Source of the DNA: Streptomyces cathayae
GTDB lineage: Bacteria > Actinomycetota > Actinomycetes > Streptomycetales > Streptomycetaceae
Length of the DNA stretch: 64,000 bases
Assembly: GCF_029760955.1 (NCBI RefSeq)
Contig: NZ_CP121682.1
Location: 1,054,001-1,118,000, forward strand
Direction of reading: 5' to 3'
Under the pieces are notes generated by a model. It made no database searches. It was not told the origin of the DNA and was given only the letters and a program-made list of their open reading frames with translations. Positions 36,370 to 53,823 of the stretch are shown here, in pieces. The position numbers and the translations under genes are program-made. Every line of letters starts with the position of its first letter. Position 1 is the stretch's first letter.

Positions 36370-37587
36370 TCAGCGGCGCCGCCGGCGCAGGGCCGCCAGG
36401 TTGTCGTAGCTGATCTTGGCCTCGCGCAGCGACTGCCCGGGGTCGGTGTCGCTCGGGGCGGTGTCGTCCTCGACCATCGGGTTGCGGTAGTTCCGCTCCC
36501 CGACCCGGGAGAAGAACGTCGTGTAGTCGATGACGCCGGTTCCGAAGGGCACCATCTCGTAGCCCATGCCGTTGGTCGTGCTGACGACGCCGTCCTTGGC
36601 GTGGAACAGCGGGTAGCGCTTGTTGTGGCGGGCGACCAGGCCGGCCGGGTCGAAGACGTTCCTGCGGGTGGAACCGTCGTGGGCGGTGTACGTGTGGAAC
36701 TTGTACTGGGCGACATGCGCCCAGAAGATGTCCATCTCCAGCCAGACGAGCTTCGGGTCGGTGACCTTGAGGAAGTACTCCAGCTTCCGGATGCCCGAGC
36801 TGCGGGTCGGCCGGCCCTGGTCGTCCAGCGGTCCGCCGTCGAGCAGGAAGCCGTAGGCGCCGTCGTGGTTGTGGGTGTAGAGCTTGATGCCCTCGCGGCG
36901 GGCGATCGCGCCGAGGGCGTTCCACTTGTCGGCGGCCACGTCCCAGTCGGCGCGGTGGGAGCTGCCGGTGGGGTCGCCGCCGGTGCCCATGTGGTCCAGG
37001 CCGAGGATGTTGGCGATCTCCAGGTGCTTCTTGAAGGTCTCCTTGTCCGCCGTGGTCAGCGGCCAGGAGGACGGGATGAAGCCGTGGTTGCCCTGGGCGC
37101 GCAGGCCGTAGTCGTCCAGCCAGCGGCGCAGCAGCTTCGCTCCCGCCACGGACTCCAGGCTCGCCCCTCCGGGTGCGTTCGCGTGCTGGTTGTAGCCGGC
37201 GAACTCCACCTGGCGGTAGCCGTGGCGGGCCAGCTGTTTGAACACCTCGCGGAAGCCGGAGGGCAGATCGGTGGACAGGGGGTCGCGGCCGGTGGCGTCA
37301 CGCACGGTGTAGAGGATGATGCCGCGCTTGTGCGGCGGGACGAGCACCTGCCCGCCGCGGTCGTGGCCGTGGTCGTGCCCGTGGTCGTGGTCTCTGCCGC
37401 GGTCGTGGGCCAGGGCGGGGGCGGCGCCGAAGACGGGGAGCGCGACGGCTCCGGCCGCCACGGCGGTGCAGGTGCTGAGGAAGCGGCGCCGGTCCACGCC
37501 CAGGGAGCGGCGCAGTCCCTCGTCCGGGGCATCGGCGGCCGAGGCGGTGACGGCCTCGGTGCGGGAGGGGTCGGAGTACGGGGTCAC
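36370..37587 (-). CDS. Tat-exported xylose isomerase-like TIM-barrel protein
   Basis: 405 residues from GTG 37587 (AAGGCAGG upstream). A Tat signal (VDRRRFLSTCTAVAAGAVALPVFGAAPALA) is followed by a His/Asp-rich spacer HDRGRDHDHGHDHGHDRGG, likely metal binding. The rest is a sugar phosphate isomerase/epimerase-type barrel: LYTVRD, LARHGYRQVEFAGYN, NHGFIP, IKLYTHNHDGAYGF, LVWLEMDIFWAH and FHAKDGV carry the usual metal-ligand Glu/His pattern. Such secreted enzymes are found in sugar oxidation (3-keto sugar) systems. It lies 158 bp behind the EBO-like cluster on the same strand and may or may not belong to it. Confidence 0.8.
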   Translation of the reverse strand: MTPYSDPSRTEAVTASAADAPDEGLRRSLGVDRRRFLSTCTAVAAGAVALPVFGAAPALAHDRGRDHDHGHDHGHDRGGQVLVPPHKRGIILYTVRDATGRDPLSTDLPSGFREVFKQLARHGYRQVEFAGYNQHANAPGGASLESVAGAKLLRRWLDDYGLRAQGNHGFIPSSWPLTTADKETFKKHLEIANILGLDHMGTGGDPTGSSHRADWDVAADKWNALGAIARREGIKLYTHNHDGAYGFLLDGGPLDDQGRPTRSSGIRKLEYFLKVTDPKLVWLEMDIFWAHVAQYKFHTYTAHDGSTRRNVFDPAGLVARHNKRYPLFHAKDGVVSTTNGMGYEMVPFGTGVIDYTTFFSRVGERNYRNPMVEDDTAPSDTDPGQSLREAKISYDNLAALRRRRR

Positions 37588-37745
37588 AAGTGGCCTGCCT
37601 TCTCGGTCGTGGCCGGTTCCGGTGCCGCCGGGACCGGCCGTTGTCAGTGCCGTGTGTTTCACTCTCCGTAGCTGGATCGCTGGATCTCGGAGGCGTCTGT
37701 GTGGTGGTGCGTCCGTCGTGGTGGGGCGTCAGCCGTGGTGGTGTG

Positions 37746-39152
37746 TCAGCCGAGTCCGGCAAGCCGGAGCAGGAGTTGTTTGACATCGGTGGCCGCGACG
37801 CGGTCTCCGACGGCACGGGGGGTGGAGCAGATGAGGAGCGGACCGTCGTCGTCGCTCGCGGGGAGGCGGCCGTGGCTGCCCCGAATAGGTGATGGATCGA
37901 GGGGCACGACCGCCATCCGGTAGCGCATGCCGAGTTTCTTGCGCGCCAGTGCGGTGGCCGCCTTGACCTTGACGTACGGGTCGAGGGGATCCATGAAGAG
38001 TTCGACCGGGTCGTAGCCGGGTTTGCGGTGGATCTCGACGAGTTGCGCGAAGTCGGGCGCGTGCTCGTCGTCGAGCCAGTAGTAGTACGTGAACCAGGCG
38101 TCGGGTTCGGCGACGGCGACCAGTTCGCCGGCGCGCGGGTGGTCGAGGTGGTGCGCCTTCTTGCCCTCGTCGTCGAGGAGTTGGTCGATGCCGGGGAGCC
38201 CTTCGAGGGCGGCCCGGGTGGCGTCGAGGTCCTCGGGGCGGCGCACGTAGACGTGGGCGATCTGGTGGTCGGCGACCGCGAAGGCGCGCGAGGCCATCGG
38301 GTCGAGGTACTCCATGCCGTCCTGCGTGTGCACCTCCAGCAGGCCCGCGCGGCGCAGGGCGCGGTTGATGTCCACGGTCCGGTTCACCCGGGTGATGCCG
38401 TACTCGGACAGGGCGACGACGGTGCGGCCCTCGGCACGTGCGTCGTCGAGCAGCGGGGCCAGGGCGGCGTCCAGGTCCGCGGCGGCTTTCAGGGAGCGGG
38501 GGTCGTCGGGGCCGAAGCGCTGCAGGTCGTAGTCGAGGTGAGGGAGGTAGCACAGGGTCAGGTCGGGGTGGCGGGTGCGGTTGATGTGGCGGGTCGCGTC
38601 GATGATCCACCGGCTGGAGACGAGGTCCGCGCCGGGGCCCCAGAAGTGGAAGAGCGGGAAGGTGCCGAACTTCTCGGTGAGTTCGTCGTGCAGGGCGGGC
38701 GGCCGGGTGTAGCAGTCGGGTTCCTTGCGGCCGTCGGCGTAGTAGACCGGGCGGGGGGTGACGGTGATGTCGGTGTCGGCGCCCATGGCGTACCACCAGC
38801 AGATGTTGGCGACGGTGTAGCCGGGGTGGGCACGGCGGGCGGCGTCCCAGAGTTTGTCGCCGGCGACGAGGCCGTTGTGCTGGCGCCACAGCAGGACGTC
38901 GCCGAGTTCGCGGAAGTACCAGCCGTTGCCGACGATGCCGTGCTCGGAGGGGAGGGTGCCGGTGAGGAAGGTGGACTGGGCGGCGCAGGTGACGGCGGGC
39001 AGCACGGTGCCGAGCGGGGCGCGGGAGCCGGACTGGCCGAGGGCCTTGAGGTGGGGCATGTGGTCGAGGAGACGGGGGGTGAGACCGACGACGTCGAGGA
39101 CGAGGAGGGGGGTGGGGTCGGCGGCGCGGTCCGTTGTGGGGTCCGGGGTCAA
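37746..39152 (-). CDS. Alkaline-phosphatase superfamily hydrolase (EboF-like)
   Basis: 468 residues of the nucleotide pyrophosphatase/phosphodiesterase type. LLVLDVVGLTPRLLDHMPHLKAL has the first metal Asp; VLPAVTCAAQSTFLTGTLPSEHGIVGNGWYFRE holds the nucleophile Thr and its surroundings; LPHLDYDLQRFG, LSEYGITRV and ADHQIAHVYV supply further metal ligands. No signal peptide, so it acts in the cytosol unless carried otherwise. The start is TTG 39152, overlapping the stop of the preceding gene as TTGA, with AAGGA upstream. The open frame extends another 1.3 kb upstream but only as the shadow of the preceding gene. Last gene of the seven-gene cluster. Confidence 0.88.
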   Translation of the reverse strand: MTPDPTTDRAADPTPLLVLDVVGLTPRLLDHMPHLKALGQSGSRAPLGTVLPAVTCAAQSTFLTGTLPSEHGIVGNGWYFRELGDVLLWRQHNGLVAGDKLWDAARRAHPGYTVANICWWYAMGADTDITVTPRPVYYADGRKEPDCYTRPPALHDELTEKFGTFPLFHFWGPGADLVSSRWIIDATRHINRTRHPDLTLCYLPHLDYDLQRFGPDDPRSLKAAADLDAALAPLLDDARAEGRTVVALSEYGITRVNRTVDINRALRRAGLLEVHTQDGMEYLDPMASRAFAVADHQIAHVYVRRPEDLDATRAALEGLPGIDQLLDDEGKKAHHLDHPRAGELVAVAEPDAWFTYYYWLDDEHAPDFAQLVEIHRKPGYDPVELFMDPLDPYVKVKAATALARKKLGMRYRMAVVPLDPSPIRGSHGRLPASDDDGPLLICSTPRAVGDRVAATDVKQLLLRLAGLG

Positions 39153-40318
39153 GGGAGTTCCTTCAGGCCTAGGTCCGTCAGCAGGTCGCGGGCGAGGGTG
39201 AGTTCGGCGGCGATGCCGTCGGCGAGCTGGGCGCGGCCCCGGGGCCGCAGCTCGGGCGGGAGGGCCTGCCAGGTGTAGGTCTCGACCTCGAGGTGGCGGG
39301 TGAGCGGGTGCGGGCCGCCGACGAGCCGGGTCAGGGCGGATTTCAGCACGGGCAGCGTGGAGGTGAGGGGCGCGGTGGGGGCCGCGTGCAGCGGGACGTG
39401 GAAGTGGGCGCGCCAGGGTGCCGCGTCGGGCAGGGTGTCGCCGGCCAGGGCTTCGGCCAGGTCGTCGGTGCCGCGCGGGCCGGCGGCGGTGGACGTGCGG
39501 GTCTGGTGCAGGAAGCGGGGTTCGGCGAAGGCCGCCAGGGCCTCGCGGACCTCGGGGAGGTGGGGCTGTTCCGCGTGCAGTGCGGCGGACAGCTGGGACT
39601 TGACCACGGGGACACCGGCCCGGATCAGGTCGTCCAGGGCGGTGTGCGGGTCTTCGAAGGAGGTGGCGAGGTGGCAGGTGTCGACACAGATGCCGATGCG
39701 GTCGTGGCCGATCGCGGTGAGCGGTGCGATGGCGTCGTGGGTGGTTTCGACGACGCAGCCGGGTTCCGGCTCCAGGGCGATGCGGATCGAGCGGCCGGTC
39801 AGCTCCTGGAGCGCGTCGAGGCGCTCGGCGAGGGTGCGCAGGGCGGTGCGGGCCGTCTCCGCTCGCTGCCCGTCGTAGGCGGTGCGCCAGGCCAGCGGCA
39901 GGGTGGAGATGCTGCCGTCGGGGACGTCGTCGGGGAGCAGTCCGGCGAGCAGGCGGGCCAGCGAGGTGGTGTGCTCCAGGCGCTCGGGATCGGCCCAGTC
40001 CGGCTTGTAGACACGGTACTTGACCTCCTCTGCGCCGAAACCCTCGTAGGGGAAGCCGTTGAGGGTGACGACCTCGAGGCCGCGCCGGTCGAGTTCGCAG
40101 CGCAGGCCGCGCAGCGCGGACGGGTCGGTGACCAGGGCGTGGGCGGCGTCCTTGGCGAGCCACAGGCCGATGCCGAGCCTGTCCCGGCCGAGGCGGCGCC
40201 GGACGGGCTCGCAGTGGTCCCGCAGCTGGGCGAGGACGCCGTCGAGGGTCTCGGCGGGGTGGACGTTGGTGCAGTAGGCCAGGTGGACGGTGGAGCCGTC
40301 GGGGTGGCGGAAACGCAT
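39149..40318 (-). CDS. EboE-like metabolite traffic / sugar isomerase-fold protein
   Basis: 389 residues. The opening LAYCTNVHPAETLDGVLAQL is the mark of the EboE family, followed by LGIGLWLAKDAA, LNGFPYEGFGAEEVKYRVYKPDW, LEPEPGCVVETTHDA, GICVDTCHLATSFEDP and HFHVPLHAAP. This is a TIM-barrel of the sugar isomerase/AP-endonuclease type with Glu/His/Asp metal ligands. The family name comes from EBO operons of cyanobacteria, Bacteroidetes and eustigmatophyte plastids, where the operon is linked to moving a precursor (scytonemin) to the periplasm; the chemical role is unknown. ATG 40318; 3 bp gap to the TatD-like gene. Confidence 0.85.
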   Translation of the reverse strand: MRFRHPDGSTVHLAYCTNVHPAETLDGVLAQLRDHCEPVRRRLGRDRLGIGLWLAKDAAHALVTDPSALRGLRCELDRRGLEVVTLNGFPYEGFGAEEVKYRVYKPDWADPERLEHTTSLARLLAGLLPDDVPDGSISTLPLAWRTAYDGQRAETARTALRTLAERLDALQELTGRSIRIALEPEPGCVVETTHDAIAPLTAIGHDRIGICVDTCHLATSFEDPHTALDDLIRAGVPVVKSQLSAALHAEQPHLPEVREALAAFAEPRFLHQTRTSTAAGPRGTDDLAEALAGDTLPDAAPWRAHFHVPLHAAPTAPLTSTLPVLKSALTRLVGGPHPLTRHLEVETYTWQALPPELRPRGRAQLADGIAAELTLARDLLTDLGLKELP

Positions 40319-40321
40319 GGC

Positions 40322-41218
40322 TCACGCCTCCGCGGCGGGGGCGCCGGCGGCCCGCGCGGGCTCGTCCCTGGGCGCGCCGCGCAGGATGGAGTTGCCCTCG
40401 TGGGTGGCCTCGGTGGCGGTGACGTCGAGGGCGAGCCGGCCGCTGAGTCCGTAGAAGGCGACGGGGTTGCGCCACAGCACCCGGTCGACGTCGTCGTCGG
40501 TGAAGCCCTCGGCGAGCATCAGGTCGGCGACCTTGCGGGTCTTGAGCGGGTCGCTCTTCCCCCAGTCGGCCGCGGAGTTGACCAGGACCCGCTCGGGGCC
40601 GTGGGCGCGCAGGATCGCGACCATCCGCTCCTCGTCCATCTTGGTGTCGGGATAGACGGAGAAGCCCAGCCAGCAGCCGCTGTCCTTGGCCTCCTTGACG
40701 GTGGTCTCGTTGAGGTGGTCCATCAGGACGCGGTCCATGGGCAGCGCGGACTCCCGGACGACGTCGAGCGTGCGGCGCAGACCGGCGAGCTTGTCGCGGT
40801 GCGGGGTGTGCACCATCGCGGGCAGGCCGTGGTCGGCGGCGAGCTGGAGCTGGGCGGCGAGCGCGGTGTCCTCGGCGGGGGTCATGGAGTCGTAGCCGAT
40901 CTCGCCGACGGCCACGACGTTGTCCTTGACGAGATACCGGGGCAGCAGGTCGAGGACGGGCGTGCAGCGCGGGTCGTTGGCCTCCTTGGGGTTGAGCGCG
41001 AGGGTGCAGTGGTGGGCGATGCCGTACTGGGCGGCCCGGAAGGGTTCCCAGCCCAGGAGGGCGTCGAAGTAGTCGAGGAAGGAGGCCGGCGAGGTGCGGG
41101 GCTGGCCGAGCCAGAAGGCGGGCTCGACGACGGCGCGGACACCCGCCGCGTACATGGCCTCGTAGTCGTCGGTGGTCCGCGAGGTCATGTGGATGTGGGG
41201 GTCGAAGAGGCGCATCAT
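40322..41218 (-). CDS. TatD-like metal-dependent hydrolase (EboB-like)
   Basis: 298 residues. Metal-ligand motif FDPHIHMTS at the N-terminus (HxH), then EPAFWLGQPRTSPASFLDYFDALLGWE, VAVGEIGYDSMTPAED (Glu ligand), MVHTPHRDK and DHLNETTV (His ligands), VNSAADWGKSDPL (Asp). This is the TatD branch of the amidohydrolase superfamily as found in EBO operons. ATG 41218 overlaps the EboA stop (ATGA). The substrate is unknown; it need not be a DNase as classical TatD is. Confidence 0.9.
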   Translation of the reverse strand: MMRLFDPHIHMTSRTTDDYEAMYAAGVRAVVEPAFWLGQPRTSPASFLDYFDALLGWEPFRAAQYGIAHHCTLALNPKEANDPRCTPVLDLLPRYLVKDNVVAVGEIGYDSMTPAEDTALAAQLQLAADHGLPAMVHTPHRDKLAGLRRTLDVVRESALPMDRVLMDHLNETTVKEAKDSGCWLGFSVYPDTKMDEERMVAILRAHGPERVLVNSAADWGKSDPLKTRKVADLMLAEGFTDDDVDRVLWRNPVAFYGLSGRLALDVTATEATHEGNSILRGAPRDEPARAAGAPAAEA

Positions 41219-42048
41219 GACTCCTTGCCGTGGGGGTGGCGGGCGTCGCGGGCGTCGCGGGCGTCGCGGTGGTCGTCCGTGGCGGGCGTCGGGGTGGCGG
41301 ACTCGGGCCGGATCAGGGCCTGTACGCGGTGCAGGTCCTCCGGGACGGGGCGGCCCGCGGCGGTGCGTTCGTCGGCGTAGTCGCCGAGCATGCGGGCGAG
41401 TTCGCCGTCGCCCCGGGCGCGCCGGGGCAGGTCCGCCACCCGGTCCACGTCGACGCCGGTGAACAGGCACTTCAGTACGGCGTGCCGCCAGGCGTGGGCG
41501 TCGAGGTGCCGGGCGCAGTACGGGCCGACGGCGGCGGAGACGAGCCGGGTGTCGTTGGTGCGCAGCGCGTCCTCGAGGAGCGGGCGGGCCTCGGGGCCGG
41601 GCACGAGGTGGGGCAGGGCGTGCAGGACGGCCCGGCGTTCGTCGGCGGTGCCCTGGTGGTACACCCGGGTCAGCGCCTCGAGGTCGGCGCGGGCCGCGTG
41701 CAGGATCAGGACGCGGGCGGCATCGGCGTGGGCCGGGCCGCAGCGGCGGCCGGCCTCGGCCAGGCGCAGCTCCCAGACGGAGATGGGCCCGTGGGTGCCG
41801 GGGCGGCCGGCCGCCTCGTCCAGGGCCTGGTCCAGCCAGGCGCGAGCGGCCGTGTCGAGGCGGGCGGAGAGAGAACGGTGCAGTTCGGCGAGCGGGGTGA
41901 CGGCGGGGTGGAGCGGGGTGGCGGGAGCGGCGGGGGTGGTGCCGTCGGCTGCCGGGGCCGCCGAGGCTCCCGGAGGGCGGGGGGCCGCCTCGGGGCCGCT
42001 CAGGGTGGCTGCCTCCGGGGTGGCCGGGGTGGCACGGGGGTGGTTCAC
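41215..42048 (-). CDS. EboA-domain protein
   Basis: 277 residues. A 50-residue Ala/Pro-rich start precedes an alpha-helical repeat-like domain (ELHRSLSARLDTAARAWLDQALDEA, FRCG-type GRRCGPAHADAARVLILHAARADLEALTRVYHQGTADERRAVLHALPHL, LVSAAVGPYCARHLDAHAWRHAVLKCLFTGVDVDRVADL, ELARMLGDYADERTAAGR) that is the EboA signature. No enzyme function is known. GTG 42048 overlaps the upstream stop (GTGA) and its own TGA overlaps the next ATG, so it is made in fixed ratio with its neighbours. The end carries DARDARDARH repeats. Confidence 0.88.
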   Translation of the reverse strand: MNHPRATPATPEAATLSGPEAAPRPPGASAAPAADGTTPAAPATPLHPAVTPLAELHRSLSARLDTAARAWLDQALDEAAGRPGTHGPISVWELRLAEAGRRCGPAHADAARVLILHAARADLEALTRVYHQGTADERRAVLHALPHLVPGPEARPLLEDALRTNDTRLVSAAVGPYCARHLDAHAWRHAVLKCLFTGVDVDRVADLPRRARGDGELARMLGDYADERTAAGRPVPEDLHRVQALIRPESATPTPATDDHRDARDARDARHPHGKES

Positions 42049-43007
42049 GGGGTGCTGCTCCCTTCGGGGGTGGCGGAGGGATCGCCGGGTGGGGGCGCGG
42101 GGGCGGGAGCCGTGCCGGCGCCGATGGTGGTCGCGGCGGTGTGGGCCGCGGCGTGGAGGAACGGGAGGGAACGGGCCGCGAAGTGGGGGCCCGCGTGGGA
42201 GTGGCGGGGCAGTTCGACGACGGTCAGGCCCTGGTAGCCGGTGGCGGCGAGGGCCGCGAGGAGGGGCGGGAAGTCGATCTCGCCGTCTCCGAAGGGCAGG
42301 TGTTCGTGGACGCCGCGGCGCATGTCCTCGATCTGGACGTGGCGCAGCCAGGGGGCGGCGTCGCGTACGCAGTCGGCGGGAGGGAGGGGTTCGAGGCACT
42401 GGCAGTGGCCGAGGTCCAGGGTGAGGCCGAGGGGTTCGGGGTCACCGAGCGTGCGGCGCAGGTGGTGGAAGTCGGCGAGGGTGGCGAGGAGGTGGCCGGG
42501 TTCGGGTTCGACGGCGAGCGGGACGCCGGCGGTGGCGGCGGCGTCCAGGACGGGGGTGAGGGTCTCGGCGAGGCGTTCCCAGGCGGTGTCCTCGTCCGTG
42601 CCGTCGGGGAGGGTGCCGCTGAAGCAATGTACGGCGTGCGCTCCGAGGTCGGCGGCGACGCGGACCGCCCGCAGGAGGAGGTCGACGCGGCGGGCGCGGT
42701 CGTCCGGGTCGGGGTCCAGCAGTGACGGGCCGTGCTTGCGGCGGGGGTCGAGCACATAGCGGGCGCCGGTCTCCACGGTGACGCCGAGCCCGAGCGCGTC
42801 CAGCCGGTGCGCGACCCGGCGGGTGCGGGCGGCGAGGTCCGGGGCGAGCGGGTCGAGGTGCATGTGGTCGAGGGTCAGTCCGACCCCGTCGTAGCCGAGG
42901 TCGGCGAGGAGGGCGAGGGCGTCGTCGAGCCGGAGGTCGGCGAGGCCGTTGGTGCCGTAGCCGAAGCGGAGCGGGGGCGAGGGGACGCCGTTCGGGTTCC
43001 GGCTCAC
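42045..43007 (-). CDS. Sugar phosphate isomerase/epimerase in the EBO-like cluster
   Basis: 320 residues, xylose-isomerase-like TIM barrel. LRFGYGTNGLADLRLDDALALLADLGYDGVGLTLDHMHLDPL, VTVETGARYVLDP, LAVEPEPGHLL (Glu ligand), LTLDLGHCQCL (Asp/His ligands), VQIEDMRRGVHEHLPFGDGEIDFPPLL (Asp/His, Glu) fit the family and suggest a cytosolic epimerase acting on a sugar or cyclitol. GTG 43007 overlaps the upstream UbiA stop, and its TGA overlaps the eboA GTG. The frame is open 800 bp further upstream only as a shadow of the UbiA gene. Confidence 0.88.
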   Translation of the reverse strand: MSRNPNGVPSPPLRFGYGTNGLADLRLDDALALLADLGYDGVGLTLDHMHLDPLAPDLAARTRRVAHRLDALGLGVTVETGARYVLDPRRKHGPSLLDPDPDDRARRVDLLLRAVRVAADLGAHAVHCFSGTLPDGTDEDTAWERLAETLTPVLDAAATAGVPLAVEPEPGHLLATLADFHHLRRTLGDPEPLGLTLDLGHCQCLEPLPPADCVRDAAPWLRHVQIEDMRRGVHEHLPFGDGEIDFPPLLAALAATGYQGLTVVELPRHSHAGPHFAARSLPFLHAAAHTAATTIGAGTAPAPAPPPGDPSATPEGSSTP

Positions 43008-44077
43008 GTGATGCTCACCTTCCTCATGGCGGACCTCCTCGCGAACATCCGGCCGGCCGGGGCCAGGGCCGCGACGAGCAGGGAGGTGACGGCCGAGCCG
43101 GAGCGGGCGGCGAGCGCGGCCTGGAGCGGGATCGTGGCCCGGATGCCGCTCCCGACGGCGCGTTGGGTGAGTGGGGGCGAGGGGTTGAGCGTGGCGTGGA
43201 GGTAGGGCCGGGCGGCCGTGGCGGCGTAGGCGGCGCCCAGGGCGGTGGCGAGGACGACGGTGGCCCTGGGCAGGCCCTCGGCCGGGCTGGAGCCCGGCAG
43301 GCCGGGGGCGGCTGCTGCCCGCCGGCCTGCCGGGGGTCGGGTGGGGCGGGCGGCCAGTCGTGTCAGCGCCCCCGTCGTCGCGAGGGCCGCCAGCGGCGCC
43401 AGGACCGAACCGCCGGTGGTCTCCCGGCGGGAGACGGCCGTGACCGCGAGGGTGTGCGTGCCGAGCAGTGCGGCGGAGGGCAGGGCGGACCGGGTGTTGC
43501 CGCCGGTGGCGGCCGCGCCCAGGAGCAGGTCCAGTCCGCGGGCGGCGGCCATGGCCGCGGGGCCGGCGGGGGTGTGCTTCAGGGCGAGGTCGTAGGCCCA
43601 GACGGTCGCCGCCAGGGGCGCGGCCACCGCGAGGGCGGGGCGTCCCGCGGCGGCGGCGAGCGCCAGTCCGGCGCCGGTGAGGGCACCGGCGGCGGTGAGG
43701 GCGGCGGCCGGGCGGATGCGGCCGGACGGAAGCGGGCGGTGCGGGCGTTCCACGGCGTCCTCGGCGCGGTCCGCCCAGTCGTTCAGGGCCATGCCGGCCT
43801 CGTACAGGCACAGGGAGGAGCCGATGGCGAGCAGGGTGCGGGGCCCGGGGCGCGCGCCGGCCGCCGCCGCCCCGGCCAGGGCGTCACCGGGGACGGTGAA
43901 CAGCGCGGGCAGCCGCAGCAGTTCGGCCCAGGCGCCCGCGCGGCCGGAGCGGGGGCGGGAGGTGCGGGGCGCGGGGCCGGGGAGGGGCGGGGCGGCGTGC
44001 CCGGGGGTCGGGCCGTCCGCCGCTGCCGCCCCGGCCGACGCGGGCGTGTCCCGCGTCGGGGCGGCTGGGCGGTTCAT
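43004..44077 (-). CDS. UbiA-family membrane prenyltransferase (EboC-like)
   Basis: 357 residues. After a 50-residue Pro/Ala-rich start come about eight helices. The first Asp-rich prenyl-diphosphate motif is NDWADRAEDAVERPHRPLPSGRI; the second is YDLALKHTPAGPAAMAAARGLDLLLG. This is the EboC type of UbiA protein, which joins a prenyl or polyprenyl group to a polar acceptor at the cytoplasmic membrane. ATG 44077 overlaps the upstream stop (ATGA), and the TGA overlaps the next GTG. The presence of a cyclitol-forming enzyme right before it suggests that the acceptor could be a cyclitol or its phosphate (inference). Confidence 0.88.
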   Translation of the reverse strand: MNRPAAPTRDTPASAGAAAADGPTPGHAAPPLPGPAPRTSRPRSGRAGAWAELLRLPALFTVPGDALAGAAAAGARPGPRTLLAIGSSLCLYEAGMALNDWADRAEDAVERPHRPLPSGRIRPAAALTAAGALTGAGLALAAAAGRPALAVAAPLAATVWAYDLALKHTPAGPAAMAAARGLDLLLGAAATGGNTRSALPSAALLGTHTLAVTAVSRRETTGGSVLAPLAALATTGALTRLAARPTRPPAGRRAAAAPGLPGSSPAEGLPRATVVLATALGAAYAATAARPYLHATLNPSPPLTQRAVGSGIRATIPLQAALAARSGSAVTSLLVAALAPAGRMFARRSAMRKVSIT

Positions 44078-45279
44078 CGCCGCACCCCGCGGTCGTCGGT
44101 GCCGTCCCGCAGCCGCCCCGCGAAGCGCCTCAGCTCCGCGTACTGCTCGGCCAGCGAGGACGGGCCGTCCCCCACCGGGTCCTTGAAGTAGAAGCCCAGC
44201 TCGCTCAGCGGGCCGGACAGGCCCCGCTGCCGGGCGCGGACGGTCAGCCGGGCCAGGTCGAGGACGAGCGGCGCGGCGAGCGCCGAGTCGCAGCCCTGCC
44301 AGGTGGTCTGCAGGATCATGCGGGCGCCGAGGAAGCCGTCGAAGGCGATGTGGTCCCAGGCCGTCTTCCAGTCGCCGAGCGCGGGGACGTCGTCGATGTG
44401 GACCTCGCCCTCGGGTGTGGTGCCGAGGGTGTCGGCGAGGACGCGGTCCTTGCCGGCGTTCTTGGCGGCGGCGGCCGCGGGGTCGGCGAGGGCGGCACCG
44501 TCGCCGCCGCCCAGGAGGTTGGTGCCGGACCAGGCCCGCACGGCGAGGGCGCGCTGCAGGAACATCGGGCCGAGCACGGAGCGCAGCAGGGTCTGCCCGG
44601 TCTTGCCGTCGCGGCCCGCGTACGGCAGGCCCGAGGACTCGGCGAGCGGGGCCAGCGCCGGGTGGTGCAGGCCCGTGGAGGGGGTGAAGTTGACGTAGGG
44701 GCAGCCGGCGCGCAGGGCGGCCGCCGCGTAGCGGGAGCTCGGCGGCAGGGAGCCGTCGGTGGGAGCGGGCTCGGTGGAGGCGACGTTCACCACGACGGCG
44801 CCCGCGAGGCCCTGGCGGTGCACGAAGTCGCGGATGTCGGCCGCGAACACGTCGATCAGTTCGTCGTCCTGGCGGCCCGATCCGCCGTCCGTGTCACCGG
44901 GCAGGGGGCCGCCGGGTCTGATCTCCCGGTCGGCGGCGACGAGTTCGGCGTGCACGGCGGAGGGCAGGCCGTGCGGCAGGACGCCGCCGGCGGCGAGGTG
45001 CTCGGCACGTTTGGGCAGCGGGCAGTCGACGGTGTCGTGGCCGCCGAAGACGAGGGAGGACAGCGGCGGCAGGCCGCACGAGGTGAAGTCGGGGGTCTCG
45101 GTGACCATGCCGGTCGGCGGGTGGAGTCCGGCGGTGACGGCGGCGCAGCCCGCGATCGCGGTCGTGGCCACGGATCCGCGCGCCCCGACGAGCCAGACGC
45201 CGAAACGCGGGGCCGGGGAAGGGGAAGGGGCGGGGGAAGGGGCGGGGGTGGTGGTGGGGAGGGACGGTCCGGCGGACAT
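44074..45279 (-). CDS. myo-Inositol-1-phosphate synthase-like NAD cyclase
   Basis: 401 residues. Rossmann start RFGVWLVGARGSVATTAIAGCAA, then VVVNVASTEPA, YVNFTPSTGLHHPALAPLAESSGLPYAGRDGKTGQTLLRSVLGPMFLQRALAVRAWSGTNLLGGGDG, KDRVLADTL, DWKTAWDHIAFDGFLGARMILQTTWQGCDSALAAPLVLDLARL. These match inositol-3-phosphate synthases (GKTGQTLLRS, NTLGNxDG-like and CDSALAAPL segments). A divergent branch, so the product may be an inositol phosphate or a related cyclitol phosphate. ATG 45279 has an excellent AAGGAGG. First gene of the seven-gene EBO-like run; it stands where other EBO operons carry a dehydroquinate-synthase-like enzyme (EboD), also an NAD-dependent sugar-phosphate cyclase. Confidence 0.87.
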   Translation of the reverse strand: MSAGPSLPTTTPAPSPAPSPSPAPRFGVWLVGARGSVATTAIAGCAAVTAGLHPPTGMVTETPDFTSCGLPPLSSLVFGGHDTVDCPLPKRAEHLAAGGVLPHGLPSAVHAELVAADREIRPGGPLPGDTDGGSGRQDDELIDVFAADIRDFVHRQGLAGAVVVNVASTEPAPTDGSLPPSSRYAAAALRAGCPYVNFTPSTGLHHPALAPLAESSGLPYAGRDGKTGQTLLRSVLGPMFLQRALAVRAWSGTNLLGGGDGAALADPAAAAAKNAGKDRVLADTLGTTPEGEVHIDDVPALGDWKTAWDHIAFDGFLGARMILQTTWQGCDSALAAPLVLDLARLTVRARQRGLSGPLSELGFYFKDPVGDGPSSLAEQYAELRRFAGRLRDGTDDRGVRR

Positions 45280-45423: not shown

Positions 45424-45443
45424 AGGGCCTCTCGAAAGGCCCT
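45424..45443 (-). terminator. Small hairpin at the end of the giant secreted-protein gene
   Basis: AGGGCCT (45424-45430) pairs with AGGCCCT (45437-45443), overlapping the stop codon. The gap 45280-45441 to the EBO-like cluster holds further GC-rich repeats and no clear promoter. Confidence 0.45.
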
Positions 45444-48400
45444 AGGAGGGCAGTTCCTTCAGCTGGATGTCGCGGAAGGAGACCTGGTCGCCGGCGCCGT
45501 GGTTCTGCAGGCCGATGTGGCCGTCGGTCAGGCTCCGCTCGGGGTCCTTGTTGGTGAAGTCGTTGATCTTGACTCCGTTGAGGAACACCTGGAGGCGTTC
45601 GCCCTGGACCTTGATCTCGTAGGAGTTCCACTGGCCGGGCGGACGCAGGACCTGGTCACGGGCCTTGGTGTTCGCCGACTTGAACGAGTAGACGGAGCCC
45701 GTGGTGCGGTCGGGCGCGTCCGTGGCGTCGATCTGGATCTCGTAGCCCTTGTTCACCGCGGACCAGGGGTCGTCGGAGGCCGGGAAGCCCACGAAGACAC
45801 CGGAGTTGTCGTCGCCCCGCATCTTCCAGTCGAGCTTGAGGGAGTACGACGTCAGCTCCTTGGCCTGGTACCAGAGCAGGCCCATGCCGCCCTCGGACTC
45901 CAGGGTGCCGTCCTTGACGTTGAACTTACCGGGGCCGGCCTGCTTCCAGCCGTCCAGGGTCTGGCCGTTGAAGATCGTCCGGTAGCCCTTGGCGGGCTTG
46001 CAGTCCGCCTTGACCTGGCCGGTGGCGTACTGCAGACCGCCGAGCAGATGGGTGCGGAAGGCCTCTTCGGCGTAGGACTCCTTGGTGTGGCCGCCGCCGG
46101 TGTAGAAGGAGCGGCCGCCGCCGTAGCTCTGGCACCAGGCGATCGGGTGGTCGCCCTTCATGGTGCCGCCCTGGTACGTCGTCTCGTCCAGGGTGGCGAG
46201 GACCTTGGCCTGCTCACGCGGGTTGGTGCGGTAGTTGTACCACTCGTCGGTGCGCTCCCAGGCGTTGTCCAGGTGCGCGGTGGACGGGTGGTCGTGGTCC
46301 TCGACGCGCACGGTGGCCTTCTGGATGGCCGGGTGCGAGTCGAAGTACGCGCCGACGAGGCCGCCGTAGAACTCCCAGTCGTACTCGGTGTCGGCGGCGG
46401 CGTGGATGCCCATGTATCCGCCACCGTTCTTGACGTAGTTCTCGAACGCCTTCTGCTGGGCGGCGTTCAGCACGTCACCGGTGGTGGACAGGAAGGCCAC
46501 CGCGTCGTACTTGGCGAGGTTGGCCGTGGTGAACTGTCCGGCCTCCTCGGTCGCGTCGACCGTGATGCCGGCCGGGGCGCCGAGTTCCTTGAGGGCGGCG
46601 ATGCCGGCCGGGATCGAGTCGTGCCGGAAGCCGGCCGTCCTGGAGAAGACCAGGACCTTCTTGCCGTCCTTGAACGGCTGGGTGGAGAACTCGAAGTCGT
46701 CCACGTCGTACAGCGCGCCGTCGCCGCCCCGGAAGACCAGGTAGATCTCCGTGGTCTTCTTCGGCAGGGACCGCAGCGGCACGTCGACGTTCTGGAACGT
46801 CTCCCAGCCGCCGGTCGGCGGGATGTACGCCGAGCCGTGCAGTTTGCCGTCGGGCGAGCCGGTGCGCAGCTCGACGAAGCCGCCGGCGCCACCGGAGGAG
46901 GCCCGCACGGTCAGCTTCTTCTGCCCGTCGAACCGGTAGGGGCTGAAGGAGATCCAGTCGCCGTCGTGGATGTCGCCGACGGTCTTGCCGCCGTGGGCGC
47001 CGGTCTTGTCGATCACCGATACGCCCTGCTGGGTGGTGAAGTGCTCGGCCTGGCGGTGCAGCGGCTGGAGCACGGTGCGCGCGGTGCCGGTCAGGGCCTC
47101 CTGGCCGTTCGCCCCGCCGTCGGTGTAGTTGGCGCCGACGACACCGTAGATGTTGGCGTTGGGGTCGTGACCGCCGTCACCGGGGGGCGGCTTGAGGGTG
47201 CCCTCGCAGCCCGTCTCACTGGTCAGCTCGTGGGCGTGGGAGTCGTGGCCGAGGCTGTAGACGACCTTGACCTTGGAGCAGTCGACCTTCTCCTCGGGGT
47301 CGGTGACGGTCACCTTGAACGGGACGGGCTCGCCGAAGGCGGCCAGAGCTCCGTTGCCCGGAACGTCGATCGTCACCTTGGGCTCGGTGTTGCCGACCAC
47401 GATGCGGACGCTGGCGTTGCCGGTGTTGCCCTCGGGGTCCTTGGCGGTGAAGGTCGCGGTGTAGGTACCGATCTTCTTGTACTTGTGGGTGGGCTTGAGG
47501 CCCTCGCCCTTGGTTCCGTCGCCGAAGTCCCAGCTGTAGGTGAGATCCGGGGAGTCGGCGTCCTTGGCGGAGGCGGTGAAGGCGACCTTGAGGCCGGCCG
47601 CGCCGGAGGTCTTGTCCGCGCCCACCTCGGCGATCGGGGAGAAGCCGTCCTGGGCGTTCTCGATCCGGTACAGCCCGGAGTTGTCGTCGCCCTGGAACCA
47701 GGAGAGGCCGTAGTCCAGGACGTAGAGCGCGCCGTCGGGACCGAAGTCCATGTCCATGATCTGGGTGCCGGTCCACGGGAAGTCGTTGATCTTCTCGACG
47801 GAGCCGTCTTCTGTCTGCTCGATCCGCTTGATCCAGCGGCGGCCGAACTCGCCCGCGAAGAAGTCGCCGTCGTACGCCTCGGGGAACTTCACCTTGGAGT
47901 CGAGGTCCGGGTCGTAGTGGTAGACCGGGCCGGCCATCGGGGACTCGGAGCCGCTGCCGAACTCGGGCACGCTGCCGCCGTCGTACGGGATCCAGGCGGG
48001 CTGGGCGGGCGGCAGGTCGGTGAGACCGGTGTTGTGCGGCGAGGTGTTCCTCGGGGCGTCGCAGTCGAACTTCTCGCCGGAGGTCTTGGTGGCGAAGTCG
48101 TAGTCGACGTAGGCGTCGTTGTCGCCGGTGCAGAACGGCCAGCCGAAGTTGGCGGGCTCGGTGACCTTGGCGAACTCGACCTGTCCCGCCGGGCCCCGCT
48201 TCGGGTCGGCGGCGCCGGCGTCGGGGCCGTAGTCGCCGACGTAGACGGTGCCGGTCTTCTCGTCGACGCTGATCCGGAACGGGTTGCGGAAGCCCATCGC
48301 GTAGATCTCGGGGCGGGTCTTCTCGGTGCCGGGGGCGAAGAGGTTGCCCTCCGGGACGGTGTACGAGCCGTCCTCGGCGACCTTGATACGGAGGAGCTTG

Positions 48401-49155
48401 CCGCGCAGGTCGTTGGTGTTGCCGGAGCTGCGGCGGGCGTCGAAGGCGGGGTTGCGGCCGGGCCGCTCGTCGATCGGCGTGTAGCCGTCGGAGGCGAAGG
48501 GGTTGGTGTCGTCGCCGGTGGACAGGTAGAGGTTGCCCTCGGCGTCGAAGTCGATGTCGCCGCCGACGTGGCAGCAGATGCCGCGGGACGCCTCGACGTC
48601 CAGGACCTTCTTCTCGCTGGCCAGGTCCAGCGTGCCGTTGGGGTTGAGGACGAACCGGGAGAGGCGGTTGACGCCGTCGAACTTCGCGAAGTCCGCGGCG
48701 GTGCCGGTCTCCGGGGCGTCGCCCGCGGGGGTGTCGAGCGGCGGGGCGTAGTAGAGGTAGACCGCCCGGTTGTTCTCGAAGTCCGGGTCGATGCCGACGC
48801 CCTGCAGGCCCTCCTCGTCATGGCTGTAGACGGGGACCTTGCCGGCGACCTTGGTGACGCCGCCCTGGTCGGTGAGGCGCAGGGTGCCGTCGCGCGAGGT
48901 GTGCAGGACGCTGCGGTCCGGGAGCACGGCGAGCGACATCGGCTCGCCCGTCTCGGGCTCGCCCTTGGCGAGCGGCACCTGCTGGAACTGCCCCTCGGCG
49001 GCGGCCGGTTCGTCGTGCTCCGGGTGGCCCGGGTGGGCGCCGGCGACGGTCGCCGGGGTGCCCACGGCCAGCATCAGGCCGGTGAGCAGGGCGAGGGCGG
49101 TGCGAAGTTTGGGACGTCTCGTGGTGTGGGTGGGTTCGAGTCTGCTTCTGTGCAC
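45442..49155 (-). CDS. Giant secreted PQQ-type sugar dehydrogenase / PKD / CBM6 / ThuA / 3-keto-disaccharide hydrolase protein
   Basis: 1237 residues from GTG 49155 (GGAGGGA six bases upstream). Order: basic Sec signal (to about 40); soluble-glucose-dehydrogenase-like beta-propeller, about 55-480 (LAVLPDRSVLHTSRDGTLRLTDQGG, GDIDFDAEGNLYLSTGD, MGFRNPFRISVDEKTGTVYVGDYG); PKD domain, about 495-585 (FTASAKDADSPDLTYSWDFGDGT); CBM6-like domain, about 715-830 (QAEHFTTQQGV, GDWISFSPYRF); ThuA-like amidotransferase-fold domain, about 835-1060 (KKVLVFSRTAGFRHDSIPAGI, GGYMGIHAAADTEYDWEFYGGLVGAYFDSHP); and a C-terminal DUF1080/3-keto-disaccharide hydrolase lectin-like domain (YRTIFNGQTLDGWKQ, GVFVGFPASDDPW). 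It probably oxidises and cleaves glycosides outside the cell. A ROK-type site precedes it. Confidence 0.9.
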   Translation of the reverse strand: MHRSRLEPTHTTRRPKLRTALALLTGLMLAVGTPATVAGAHPGHPEHDEPAAAEGQFQQVPLAKGEPETGEPMSLAVLPDRSVLHTSRDGTLRLTDQGGVTKVAGKVPVYSHDEEGLQGVGIDPDFENNRAVYLYYAPPLDTPAGDAPETGTAADFAKFDGVNRLSRFVLNPNGTLDLASEKKVLDVEASRGICCHVGGDIDFDAEGNLYLSTGDDTNPFASDGYTPIDERPGRNPAFDARRSSGNTNDLRGKLLRIKVAEDGSYTVPEGNLFAPGTEKTRPEIYAMGFRNPFRISVDEKTGTVYVGDYGPDAGAADPKRGPAGQVEFAKVTEPANFGWPFCTGDNDAYVDYDFATKTSGEKFDCDAPRNTSPHNTGLTDLPPAQPAWIPYDGGSVPEFGSGSESPMAGPVYHYDPDLDSKVKFPEAYDGDFFAGEFGRRWIKRIEQTEDGSVEKINDFPWTGTQIMDMDFGPDGALYVLDYGLSWFQGDDNSGLYRIENAQDGFSPIAEVGADKTSGAAGLKVAFTASAKDADSPDLTYSWDFGDGTKGEGLKPTHKYKKIGTYTATFTAKDPEGNTGNASVRIVVGNTEPKVTIDVPGNGALAAFGEPVPFKVTVTDPEEKVDCSKVKVVYSLGHDSHAHELTSETGCEGTLKPPPGDGGHDPNANIYGVVGANYTDGGANGQEALTGTARTVLQPLHRQAEHFTTQQGVSVIDKTGAHGGKTVGDIHDGDWISFSPYRFDGQKKLTVRASSGGAGGFVELRTGSPDGKLHGSAYIPPTGGWETFQNVDVPLRSLPKKTTEIYLVFRGGDGALYDVDDFEFSTQPFKDGKKVLVFSRTAGFRHDSIPAGIAALKELGAPAGITVDATEEAGQFTTANLAKYDAVAFLSTTGDVLNAAQQKAFENYVKNGGGYMGIHAAADTEYDWEFYGGLVGAYFDSHPAIQKATVRVEDHDHPSTAHLDNAWERTDEWYNYRTNPREQAKVLATLDETTYQGGTMKGDHPIAWCQSYGGGRSFYTGGGHTKESYAEEAFRTHLLGGLQYATGQVKADCKPAKGYRTIFNGQTLDGWKQAGPGKFNVKDGTLESEGGMGLLWYQAKELTSYSLKLDWKMRGDDNSGVFVGFPASDDPWSAVNKGYEIQIDATDAPDRTTGSVYSFKSANTKARDQVLRPPGQWNSYEIKVQGERLQVFLNGVKINDFTNKDPERSLTDGHIGLQNHGAGDQVSFRDIQLKELPS

Positions 49156-49324
49156 GAAGTCCCTCCGGGAACGGGGTGGAGCCGTACGGAACGAGTGCGA
49201 AGACGTGCGGTGCGTGCGGACGCCGGGGTGCGTCGTCACCCCGAAGGCGCGGGTGTCCTGAACACTTCAGGGACGGTAACCGCGTTCTTCCGAAACGAAC
49301 ACCCCTTGGGTCAGGGCTGGTTGA

Positions 49325-49424: not shown

Positions 49425-50423
49425 TCAGCTGTTGAACGCGGCGTCGAAGGACGCGCTGGGCGGCTCGAAGTCGTACGCCTTGAGCCGGGTCAGCGCCTCC
49501 GGGGCGCCCTGGAGCCGGTCCATGCCGGCGTCCTCCCATTCGACGGAGACCGGGCCCCGGTAGTCGATGGAGCGCAGCATGCGGAAGACGTCCTCCCAGG
49601 GGACGTCGCCGTGGCCGGCGGAGACGAAGTCCCAGCCGCGACGGGGGTCGCCCCAGGGCAGGTGGGAGCCGAGGCGGCCGTTGCGGCCGTCGAGGCGTTT
49701 GCGGGCCTCCTTGCAGTCCACGTGGTAGATCCGGTCGCGGAAGTCCCACAGGAAGCCGACCGGGTCGAGGTCCTGCCACACGAAGTGGGAGGGGTCGAAG
49801 TTGAGTCCGAAGGCCGGCCGGTGGTCGACCGCCTCCAGGGTGCGCACGGTGGTCCAGTAGTCGTAGGCGATCTCGCTGGGGTGCACCTCGTGCGCGAACC
49901 GCACGCCCTCGGCGTCGAAGACGTCCAGGATCGGGTTCCAGCGCGTCGCGAAGTCCTCGTAGCCGCGGTCGATCATCGACTCGGGAGCGGGCGGGAACAT
50001 GGCGACCAGGTGCCAGATCGCCGACCCGGTGAATCCGATGACGGTGTCGACGCCGAGGAGGGCCGCGGCGCGCGCGGTGTCCTTGATCTCGGCGGCGGCC
50101 CGCTGCCGTACGCCCTCGGGTTCGCCGTCGCCCCAGATCCTGGCGGGCAGGATGGCCTGGTGGCGCTCGTCGATGATGGCGTCGCACACCGCCTGGCCGA
50201 CCAGGTGGTTGGAGATCGCCCAGCACCTGAGGCCGTACTTGTCGAGGAGCTGGTGCCGGGAGGCGACGTAGGACGGGTCGGCGAGTGCCTTGTCGACCTC
50301 GAAGTGGTCACCCCAGCAGGCGAGTTCGAGACCGTCGTAGCCGAAGTCGCGGGCGAGTCGGCAGACCTCCTCCAGGGGCAGGTCCGCCCACTGTCCGGTG
50401 AACAGCGTGAAGTTGCGCGGCAT
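49425..50423 (-). CDS. Sugar phosphate isomerase/epimerase
   Basis: 332 residues, TIM barrel. [86 protein letters not shown] (Glu ligand), [13 protein letters not shown] (Asp/His), [48 protein letters not shown] and [11 protein letters not shown] (Glu) give the metal site. The sequence resembles IolE/3-keto-sugar isomerase-like enzymes that partner with Gfo/Idh oxidoreductases. ATG 50423 follows GAGGAGGA; 15 bp behind the oxidoreductase gene, so last in the ROK-ABC operon. Cytosolic; substrate unknown. Confidence 0.9.
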
Positions 50424-52803: not shown

Positions 52804-53823
52804 TCAGGTCGTGCTCGCGGTACGGCGCTGGACCAGCACGGCGGCGACGATGATCGCGCCCTTGGCGATCTGCTGGACGTCGCTCTGCAGGTTGTTCAGG
52901 GCGAAGATGTTGGTGATCGTGGTGAAGATCAGGACGCCCAGCACGGAGCCGACGATGGTGCCGCGGCCTCCGGTGAGAAGGGTGCCGCCGATGATCGCGG
53001 CGGCGATGGCGTCGAGTTCGTAGAGGTTGCCGTTGGTGTTCTGGCCGGAGCCGGCCAGGACGATCAGCAGGAAGGCGGCGATGCCGCAGCACAGCCCGGA
53101 CAGCAGGTAGAGGTACAGCCGCTGGCGGCGGACGTCGATGCCGGCGAGCCGGGCCGCCTCCGGGTTGCCTCCGACGGCGACGGTGCGGCGCCCGAAGGTG
53201 GTCCGGTTGAGCACCAGCCAGCCGATGACGGTGACCGCCGCGAACACCAGGACCAGGGGCGGGATGCCCAGGACGTAGGAGTCGCGTTCACCGAGGTCGA
53301 GGACCCCGTCGATGGTGACGACCTGGGTCCGCCCGTCGGTGATCAGCAGGGCCAGACCACGGGCCGAGGCGAGCATGGCCAGCGTCGCGATGAACGGGAC
53401 CATCCCGCCGTAGGCGATGAGCACCCCGTTGACCAGGCCGCAGCCCAGTCCGACGAGGACGGCGGTGAACAGGATGCCGGTGAAGCCGAACTCCTGGGTG
53501 GCCACGGTGGTCGCCCACACCGAGGACAGGGCGACGATCGCGCCGACCGACAGGTCGATGCCGCCGGAGGTGATGACGAAGGTCATGCCGACGGTGACGA
53601 CACCGATGACGGAGGCCTGGGTGAGCACGAGTTGGAGGTTGCGGGTGTCCAGGAACTCGTCGGGTCTGGTGATGCCGCCGATGAGGACGAGTACGGCGAG
53701 CACGCCGAGCAGTGACAGCGTACGGAGGTCGGCGCGGAACAACACGGCGCGCCAGGCGGGTGTTTCGCCGGTGGCGGGCACCTTGTCGGTGCGTTCCCGC
53801 GGCGGGGAGACGGGCTGCGTCAT
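52804..53823 (-). CDS. Rbs-type sugar ABC transporter permease
   Basis: 339 residues, about ten helices. RNLQLVLTQASVIGVVTVGMTFVITSGGIDLSVGAIVALSSV is the signature of the RbsC family, with GGMVPFIATLAMLASARGLALLITDGR and IAAAIIGGTLLTGGRGTIVGSVLGVLIFTTITN. Start overlaps the ATPase stop by 4 bp (ATGA). It forms the channel of the importer in the operon controlled by the ROK protein. Confidence 0.94.
   Translation of the reverse strand: MTQPVSPPRERTDKVPATGETPAWRAVLFRADLRTLSLLGVLAVLVLIGGITRPDEFLDTRNLQLVLTQASVIGVVTVGMTFVITSGGIDLSVGAIVALSSVWATTVATQEFGFTGILFTAVLVGLGCGLVNGVLIAYGGMVPFIATLAMLASARGLALLITDGRTQVVTIDGVLDLGERDSYVLGIPPLVLVFAAVTVIGWLVLNRTTFGRRTVAVGGNPEAARLAGIDVRRQRLYLYLLSGLCCGIAAFLLIVLAGSGQNTNGNLYELDAIAAAIIGGTLLTGGRGTIVGSVLGVLIFTTITNIFALNNLQSDVQQIAKGAIIVAAVLVQRRTASTT

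Follow-up and report, generated by a model that had tools for sequence, protein, structure and literature searches.

Positions 37,746 to 45,279 of the window, a stretch of 64,000 nucleotides from Streptomyces cathayae, hold a minus-strand operon that probably represents a second major form of the EBO gene set, with a myo-inositol-phosphate synthase (MIPS)-like cyclase and a TIM-barrel isomerase instead of the dehydroquinate-synthase-like EboD, as in most actinobacterial sets. The canonical ebo operon has six genes, eboA–F, and is described from cyanobacteria, Bacteroidetes, other bacteria and eustigmatophyte plastids (PMC5133447, PMC6282210). The operon in the window shares with it EboE, an EboA domain, a TatD-type EboB, a UbiA-type EboC, a phosphodiesterase-type EboF and the tight gene packing, and differs from it in the MIPS cyclase and the added isomerase, in having no EboD and in a UbiA protein of the SCO3242 family; in addition, the MIPS type often stands beside GSDH/ThuA-type and sugar-uptake genes. 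This gene content is conserved, the two cyclases did not occur together in any locus compared, and the active-site residues are kept. The operon type is widespread, being common in actinobacteria and having a partial counterpart in some haloarchaea. The exchange of cyclases is well supported, and the cyclase product, pathway steps and enzyme activities proposed below are predictions from sequence.

Gene families and conserved residues of the operon

Seven intact open reading frames are read from the sequence in the order MIPS-like cyclase, UbiA, TIM-barrel isomerase, EboA-domain protein, EboB, EboE and EboF (Table 1), as the first-pass annotation of this DNA had claimed. Its account of the junctions is likewise borne out, with five 4-base overlaps (ATGA at 44074–44077 for MIPS/UbiA, GTGA at 43004–43007 for UbiA/isomerase, GTGA at 42045–42048 for isomerase/EboA, ATGA at 41215–41218 for EboA/TatD and TTGA at 39149–39152 for EboE/phosphodiesterase) and a 3-base gap at 40319–40321 between TatD and EboE, the sole joint of the six that does not overlap.

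Families were assigned with the curated cut-offs of NCBIfam and a Pfam domain search, the latter recognizing both MIPS domains, UbiA, two AP_endonuc_2 TIM barrels, TatD and a type I phosphodiesterase, with no match for the EboA protein. The expected membership in the Ebo families held in part. EboE and the EboA domain score above the cut-offs of their models (250 bits for NF035939 and 50 bits for NF035938), and a narrower EboA family model failed (61.2 bits against a cut-off of 320). The UbiA protein fails the EboC model NF035940 (124 bits against 250) and instead fits a distinct family of prenyltransferases named after SCO3242 (NF045897, cut-off 260). The TatD-type EboB and phosphodiesterase-type EboF genes are present and conserved with their EboD-type relatives.

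The EboA-domain protein is predicted to be all-helical (predicted local distance difference test score, pLDDT, 85.3), and the predicted fold has no match in the PDB at E ≤ 0.001; the best match of the EboE sequence among solved structures, at E 0.0064, is not meaningful. The model of the isomerase shows alternating strands and helices (pLDDT 92.8), and matches to its xylose-isomerase-like fold include the inositol-catabolism enzymes IolI and IolE. Its ligand-like residues E, D, H and E are identical in all 38 aligned rows, and the HxH, E, H, H and D of EboB in all 48, which comprise MIPS-type, EboD-type, Gemmatirosa and haloarchaeal proteins. Sets of acidic and histidine residues are in this way kept across types in EboB (48 rows), EboE (45), EboF (48) and the isomerase (38). 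In UbiA, NDxxDxxxD is invariant among 11 aligned EboC-type proteins, and the second acidic motif, usually DxxxD, has apparently shrunk in these rows to one nearly invariant Glu.

These residues bear on the idea that the EBO proteins form a membrane translocation complex in which the cyclase is replaceable since it is structural rather than catalytic. An all-helical EboA would suit such a complex, but MIPS and dehydroquinate synthase are different protein families, the active-site residues of MIPS are conserved, and the residues proposed as catalytic in EboB, EboE, EboF and the isomerase are likewise kept across types; a purely structural role is thus highly improbable.

The cyclase and the housekeeping inositol-phosphate synthase

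The cyclase carries both the NAD_binding_5 and the Inos-1-P_synth domain, and the solved structure closest to it by sequence is that of Archaeoglobus MIPS (1u1i, 207.6 bits). Residues N254, K273, K277, K305 and K366 align with N255, K274, K278, K306 and K367 of the Archaeoglobus enzyme and do not vary among the 14 ebo-type MIPS proteins aligned. Alanine is found at three of these sites, which have a catalytic role in MIPS, in PDB entries 3qw2, 3qvw and 3qvx. The Archaeoglobus fulgidus enzyme is thus of the same sequence family, with the same lysines and asparagine, and to our knowledge belongs to no ebo set.

On the mycothiol INO1 model TIGR03450 the cyclase reaches 29.2 bits against a cut-off of 638, and a separate housekeeping INO1 lies at 4.01 Mb on the main contig (729.5 bits against 638). 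The cyclase as the sole source of inositol, which the first-pass annotation had counted as a case against its own proposal, is ruled out by this mycothiol INO1. It could still be supposed that the MIPS-like protein merely raises the supply of inositol for phosphatidylinositol and mycothiol and is not involved in making the EBO product, given that it belongs to the MIPS family with its conserved residues and that inositol is widely used in actinobacteria. This is very unlikely, as the strain has its dedicated INO1, the ebo-type MIPS is confined to genomes with EboE (84 of 84 among the 394 described below), and MIPS is also found in a Gemmatirosa set and three haloarchaeal sets.

Exclusion of EboD in the strain and across the class

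The absence of EboD and the leading position of a MIPS-like cyclase, both noted earlier, were confirmed. Pfam finds no EboD in the operon, and an EboD alignment has no match in the strain's genome at E ≤ 1e-50. Three places in the genome match PF01761, none of them beside the operon: AroB (342.5 bits, cut-off 305), an AroB-like protein below that cut-off (268.3) and a weak match (24.7).

The class was surveyed in 394 genomes with a MIPS profile built from an alignment of 14 ebo-type proteins and an EboD profile built from nine; as these genomes share ancestry, the counts are not independent of one another and the Fisher p value below is descriptive. EboE scores above its cut-off in 90 of the 394, and in the genus itself in 28 of 40, the strain's own genome counted. 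The ebo-type MIPS (≥450 bits) occurs in 84 genomes, the lowest at 476.7 bits, all of them within the 90 with EboE and none outside (Fisher p 2.8e-79), and below it the scores drop to 365.7 bits. Six of the eight lower-scoring MIPS places (L208–L213) were inspected, with no further ebo gene recognized. Matches to the EboD profile at E ≤ 1e-50 were found in 11 genomes (best 205.3 bits); in two of these, G150 (196.7 bits) and G533 (180.6 bits), EboE and the MIPS type are present as well. Because single EboD proteins of other phyla score 366–466 bits against the only actinobacterial EboD found (locus L031), the eleven weak matches appear to be other members of the superfamily. An EboD elsewhere in the genome, co-occurring with this cyclase, was accordingly not seen in the 394 genomes.

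A second EboE-like group (G500, G673, G409 and others) covers only positions 1–242 of the EboE model, at 172–192 bits; in two of its loci, L216 and L217, no other ebo gene was recognized, bar a weak isomerase match in L217.

Gene neighborhoods of EboE

Neighborhoods were compared for 173 loci: 80 actinobacterial (the window included), 13 plasmid-borne and 80 Streptomyces loci from a species collection. The actinobacterial EboE places above cut-off number 94, of which 73 were covered at first and then two of the remaining 21, all in the genus itself; the plasmid loci are 13 of 48 records with an EboE match, and eight more were inspected of 64 with a MIPS match; the Streptomyces loci are the best 80 of at least 509 EboE relatives.

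Not one of the 173 loci has both cyclases, which is the mutual exclusion that the first-pass annotation had asked to be surveyed. The 80 actinobacterial loci divide into 69 with MIPS, one with EboD (L031), five with neither and five with EboE only, so that MIPS is a near-constant member. Two of the loci with neither cyclase, L181 and L182, reach contig edges, and the MIPS gene is on another contig of each genome; in L045 the frames are broken and no trace of MIPS is seen; the other two are L028 and L176, described below. The plasmid loci comprise eight of the EboD type (Mycetohabitans, Azospirillum, two Deinococcus, Ketogulonicigenium, Salipiger, Roseivivax and Aureibacter) and five of the MIPS type (Gemmatirosa, Nonomuraea and three Streptomyces). 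Among the best 80 of the at least 509 relatives, 63 stretches have the MIPS gene and none has EboD, which speaks against a chance arrangement; 15 of the 17 without MIPS end no more than 4.1 kb upstream of EboE.

An isomerase of the same family as that in the window is present in 68 of the 69 actinobacterial MIPS loci, and in 65 its place is either between the UbiA and EboA genes or in a fusion with EboA. The fusion itself is found in five of the 69 and in the Nonomuraea plasmid locus L136, and was remarked on in actinobacteria earlier, with no further data given in the passage concerned (PMC5133447). No isomerase of this family was found by similarity search in any of the nine loci with EboD, although the Ketogulonicigenium operon has an annotated sugar phosphate isomerase just outside it. 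Since MIPS comes nearly always with the extra TIM barrel, EboD appears to be replaced by two enzymes. The proposal that MIPS replaces EboD therefore stands as regards exclusivity, but not as a one-for-one exchange.

Two further observations concern these loci. In the five with EboE only (L164, L192, L195, L206 and L207), EboE is above its cut-off, no other ebo gene was recognized and an ABC-permease homologue is present in each; by Pfam, EboE in L164 and L207 is near dehydrogenase, transketolase-like or Gfo/Idh genes. Judged from these neighbors, the chemistry of EboE seems to be used outside EBO as well. In Mycetohabitans L128 (2069–5087) and Aureibacter L135 (1097–4157), genes for a ferritin-like protein and a large protein with no Pfam match are found just before the EboD-type operon.

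A mixed set in Gemmatirosa and a haloarchaeal counterpart

On the Gemmatirosa plasmid (L127) the isomerase, MIPS, UbiA, EboF and EboB genes share a strand, EboE is on the opposite one, and no EboA was found in the locus. Its EboB groups with EboD-type kin, 73% identical to the nearest, with an actinobacterial grouping rejected (p 1.2e-36), and its EboF tends to the EboD-type side as well (p 0.046). The trees were quick searches, for which 35 MIPS-type rows were hand-picked for spread and rows below 45 bits excluded, and the clades tested for this placement were named after the similarity scores had been seen. Gemmatirosa thus looks like a case, in one genome, of a MIPS cyclase in an apparent EboD-type background. 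That EboC followed the cyclase there is not claimed; quick tree support for it was 96, yet the test gave p 0.58.

In three haloarchaeal plasmid loci (L140, Halobaculum; L142, Natronococcus; L143, Halocatena) MIPS adjoins an EboF-like phosphodiesterase, with TatD, UbiA and two isomerase genes close by. Against bacterial ebo queries the best scores of the EboB- and EboF-like proteins are 229–264 bits and those of MIPS 307–329 bits. EboE and EboA were not found in these three loci, and the second isomerase may take the part of EboE. A fourth haloarchaeal MIPS locus, L141, is without ebo genes. In a quick MIPS tree the actinobacterial ebo proteins form one group (support 97), the haloarchaeal ebo proteins and L141 a second (100) and ten MIPS proteins from non-ebo loci a third (96), with Gemmatirosa apart.

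Plasmids of Hymenobacter and Roseomonas carry MIPS in another company (L144, 7797–16498; L145, 7638–16825), together with Gfo/Idh/MocA, YcaO-like, sugar isomerase and PIG-L deacetylase genes.

A proposed route and the points against it

In the route we propose, the MIPS-type cyclase would form the ring by cyclizing glucose 6-phosphate instead of a C7 sugar, and so give a phosphate of inositol or inosose. Isomerization, dehydration or dephosphorylation of this cyclitol phosphate could then fall to the isomerase, EboE, EboB and EboF, and the membrane enzyme of the EboC/SCO3242 kind would prenylate the ring, with prenyl diphosphate supplied in some genomes by a synthase adjoining the operon. As the xylose-isomerase-like fold covers enzymes of inositol catabolism, isomerization or dehydration of a keto-cyclitol, even aromatization, is possible. 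The resulting prenyl-cyclitol lipid, possibly aromatized, may act in the membrane to move or handle a metabolite, as EBO does in Nostoc, where it is reported to be needed to move a metabolite out of the cytoplasm (PMC6282210). In the MIPS type this lipid might often work alongside a sugar-uptake and sugar-oxidizing set, and the layout of one genome (L176) suggests that the pathway may draw on an imported, oxidized cyclitol or sugar as well. For the canonical operon, sedoheptulose 7-phosphate as the substrate of EboD was posited by those who described it (PMC5133447).

Two known systems offer partial likenesses. The pathway to BE-40644 in Actinoplanes is a chemical precedent, with a sugar-phosphate-derived cyclitol, dehydration and farnesylation by an enzyme of the UbiA superfamily (PMC5133447). 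It differs in using an EEVS cyclase and in belonging to a secondary-metabolite cluster, and EboA, EboB, EboE and EboF do not figure in its description there. Ubi-297 is an EboC-type enzyme for which farnesyl transfer has been shown, but it comes from the EboD-containing set of marine Flavobacteria and the test substrates it accepted are aromatic, chiefly quinoline acids (PMC9235831). Aromatization of the ring would fit both the substrates of Ubi-297 and the BE-40644 precedent.

Several points weigh against this reading. We know of no EBO enzyme with a proven natural substrate. The genomes compared are relatives, which limits what their counts can carry, and the EboD profile scores come without a positive control on a known or left-out EboD genome. 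MIPS is absent from L093 and L124 though the stretch is long enough, both of which look rearranged; L028 and L215 are second copies of the operon without MIPS, in G128, whose other copy (L029) has it, and in G659, which has MIPS elsewhere. Locus L176 (7668–13803) is an ebo operon lacking both MIPS and isomerase; in their place, genes for the sugar-binding protein of an ABC system and for a Gfo/Idh/MocA dehydrogenase stand ahead of EboC, and MIPS is therefore not strictly needed. The EboE of Gemmatirosa is placed with EboD-type kin only weakly (p 0.109), the test leaves its EboC undecided, and the actinobacterial, Gemmatirosa and haloarchaeal MIPS proteins from ebo sets form no single clade in the quick tree. 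The genes flanking the operon, presented below, appear catabolic rather than biosynthetic. In marine bacteria, finally, EboC homologues transfer farnesyl groups to quinoline acids, which are not cyclitols (PMC9235831).

The MIPS type gives a chemical starting point for finding the EBO product: as the substrate and chemistry of the MIPS family are known, the EBO precursor can be predicted and labeled. A comparison of the MIPS and EboD types would tell which part of the EBO molecule is common to both. EboE is, moreover, frequent in Streptomyces, where genetics and lipid analysis are routine.

Part of the finding is already known to annotators, as NCBI curators have an SCO3242 family. No description of the MIPS type was found among the open-licence papers searched, and the NCBI family names led to no paper; words starting with inositol are absent from the main texts of PMC5133447, PMC6282210 and PMC9235831. 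SCO3242 or SCO3243 led to transcriptome papers. The two are listed as "putative transferase" and "myo-inositol phosphate synthase" within the calcium-dependent antibiotic (CDA) cluster SCO3210–SCO3249 of S. coelicolor, where the passages assign them no function (PMC3610822). The likeness of this pair to the operon is one of names, through the family called after SCO3242. A link to CDA by neighborhood was dropped: the S. violaceoruber locus L102 resembles the window and has no gene call above 1058 residues, which leaves only the locus tags of PMC3610822. A link of the product to the Foxicin cluster was likewise dropped, as the main text of PMC5318452 is without mention of prenyl, inositol, TatD or phosphodiesterase. 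An ebo region is described in the actinobacterium Saccharomonospora (PMC9235831), and a review credits the EDB cluster with indole compounds and nematode repulsion, with no word on a cyclase in its passage on the cluster (PMC9655573).

Genes flanking the operon

A leftward train that ends in the operon, consisting of a ROK regulator, a ribose-type ATP-binding cassette (ABC) importer, a dehydrogenase, a TIM barrel and a GSDH/ThuA protein, had been missed by the first-pass annotation (Table 1). The ABC ATPase and permease genes overlap by 4 bases. Inverted repeats, among them one of 22 bases with 82% complementarity, occur in the 162 bases ahead of the cyclase gene, in which neither a sigma-70-like promoter nor a T-run terminator was found by consensus.

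Table 1. Genes of the operon and of its flanks in the window
Gene product	Position	Strand	Supporting match or model
MIPS-like cyclase, 401 aa, heading the operon	44074..45279	-	PF07994 118.8 bits, PF01658 99.4 bits
UbiA-type prenyltransferase, SCO3242 family (EboC-like)	43004..44077	-	NF045897 389.7 bits
TIM-barrel isomerase/epimerase-like, extra gene of the MIPS type	42045..43007	-	PF01261 151 bits
EboA-domain protein	41215..42048	-	NF035938 163.9 bits
EboB, TatD-type metal hydrolase	40322..41218	-	PF01026 49.8 bits
EboE, TIM-barrel protein	39149..40318	-	NF035939 427.6 bits
EboF, type I phosphodiesterase/phosphatase-like, TTG start	37746..39152	-	PF01663 236.2 bits
TIM-barrel sugar-isomerase-like, twin-arginine-like N terminus (by eye)	36370..37662	-	PF01261 83.6 bits
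GSDH/PKD/CBM6/ThuA/3-keto-disaccharide hydrolase protein, 1265 aa, secreted-type	45442..49239	-	Pfam
TIM-barrel sugar-isomerase-like protein	49425..50423	-	PF01261 144.5 bits
Gfo/Idh/MocA dehydrogenase	50439..51656	-	best model levoglucosan dehydrogenase, 359.1 bits, under cut-off 650
ABC sugar-binding lipoprotein, RbsB-like	51737..52786	-	108.6 bits, under cut-off 337
ABC permease, sugar type	52804..53823	-	PF02653 127 bits; AraH-like 215.2 bits, under cut-off 378
ABC ATPase, sugar type	53820..55337	-	PF00005; AraG-like 531.1 bits, under cut-off 689
ROK-family regulator	55555..56880	-	PF00480 200.3 bits

Of the 69 actinobacterial MIPS loci, 42 have a homologue of at least part of the 1265-residue protein. 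A match to the GSDH domain is present in 30 (23 of the 60 beyond the strain's own family, and 7 of 14 families), one to the 3-keto-disaccharide hydrolase domain in 25 and one to the ThuA domain in 13; no match to any of these domains was found in the nine loci of the EboD type. The strain's genome has five GSDH genes (six matches) per 7.6 Mb, and by the measure of this one genome chance would place a GSDH gene in about one or two of every hundred 18-kb stretches. Homologues of the TIM-barrel protein on the other side of the operon (36370..37662) were found at E ≤ 1e-5 in 26 of 77 MIPS loci. That the neighboring GSDH proteins would need a replacement cofactor, the strain being unable to make pyrroloquinoline quinone, was considered and rejected for this strain, which has a PqqC above its cut-off.

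Such neighbors raise the question of whether the whole train from 36370 to 56880 is a locus for the utilization of a glycoside or sugar, in which secreted enzymes would oxidize the glycoside at C3, the ABC importer would take up the product, and the ebo enzymes would be isomerases, hydrolases and phosphatases of catabolism, with MIPS and UbiA as side branches. The regulator, the RbsABC-like importer, the levoglucosan-dehydrogenase-like enzyme, the TIM barrels and the GSDH/ThuA protein all lead into the operon, similar sugar genes recur beside it in several families, and the five solitary EboE genes, with their ABC-permease homologues and, at L164 and L207, dehydrogenases, are also in keeping with sugar catabolism. 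However, neither a MIPS cyclase nor a membrane prenyltransferase, accompanied in some loci by a prenyl synthase, is easily explained by catabolism, and the MIPS reaction is regarded as irreversible; moreover, a homologue of the GSDH/ThuA protein is found in none of the nine EboD-type loci, and in 27 of the 69 actinobacterial MIPS loci there is none in the stretch examined. We consider a utilization locus unlikely on balance and prefer the synthesis of a prenylated cyclitol.

Clustering of the flanks covered 82 of 88 loci, six from the strain's own family being excluded. A polyprenyl synthetase is near the operon in 8 of the 82 (one member checked by Pfam), and in six of these, L027, L039, L149, L150, L152 and L205, which represent four families, it is directly adjacent on the same strand. 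In 3 of 77 loci a ScyD/ScyE-type (NHL) protein directly precedes MIPS, identified by annotation in L137 (2221–3423) and by similarity to L137 in L155 and L162. This placement recalls the scytonemin clusters of cyanobacteria.

A broader and rather improbable reading is that EBO is a shikimate-independent route of bacteria and haloarchaea, in which a sugar phosphate would be turned into a keto-cyclitol and, by TIM-barrel dehydration, into a quinol-like prenyl lipid serving secreted beta-propeller oxidoreductases, with C6 (MIPS) and C7 (EboD) versions of a single lipid class. The lipid would then be a membrane carrier of electrons or substrate, a part of the same conjecture and just as doubtful. 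Equally tentative is the assignment of the oxidoreductases to the GSDH type in actinobacteria and Natronococcus and to the ScyD/ScyE type in cyanobacteria and some actinobacteria.

Beyond the TIM-barrel gene, on the plus strand at 29640–36242 of the window, a thiamine pyrophosphate enzyme, an acyl-CoA-synthetase-like gene and a membrane transporter lie beside the operon. The first of these may be an oxalyl-CoA decarboxylase, and look-alikes of the other two were seen by eye next to the operon in L102 and L110.

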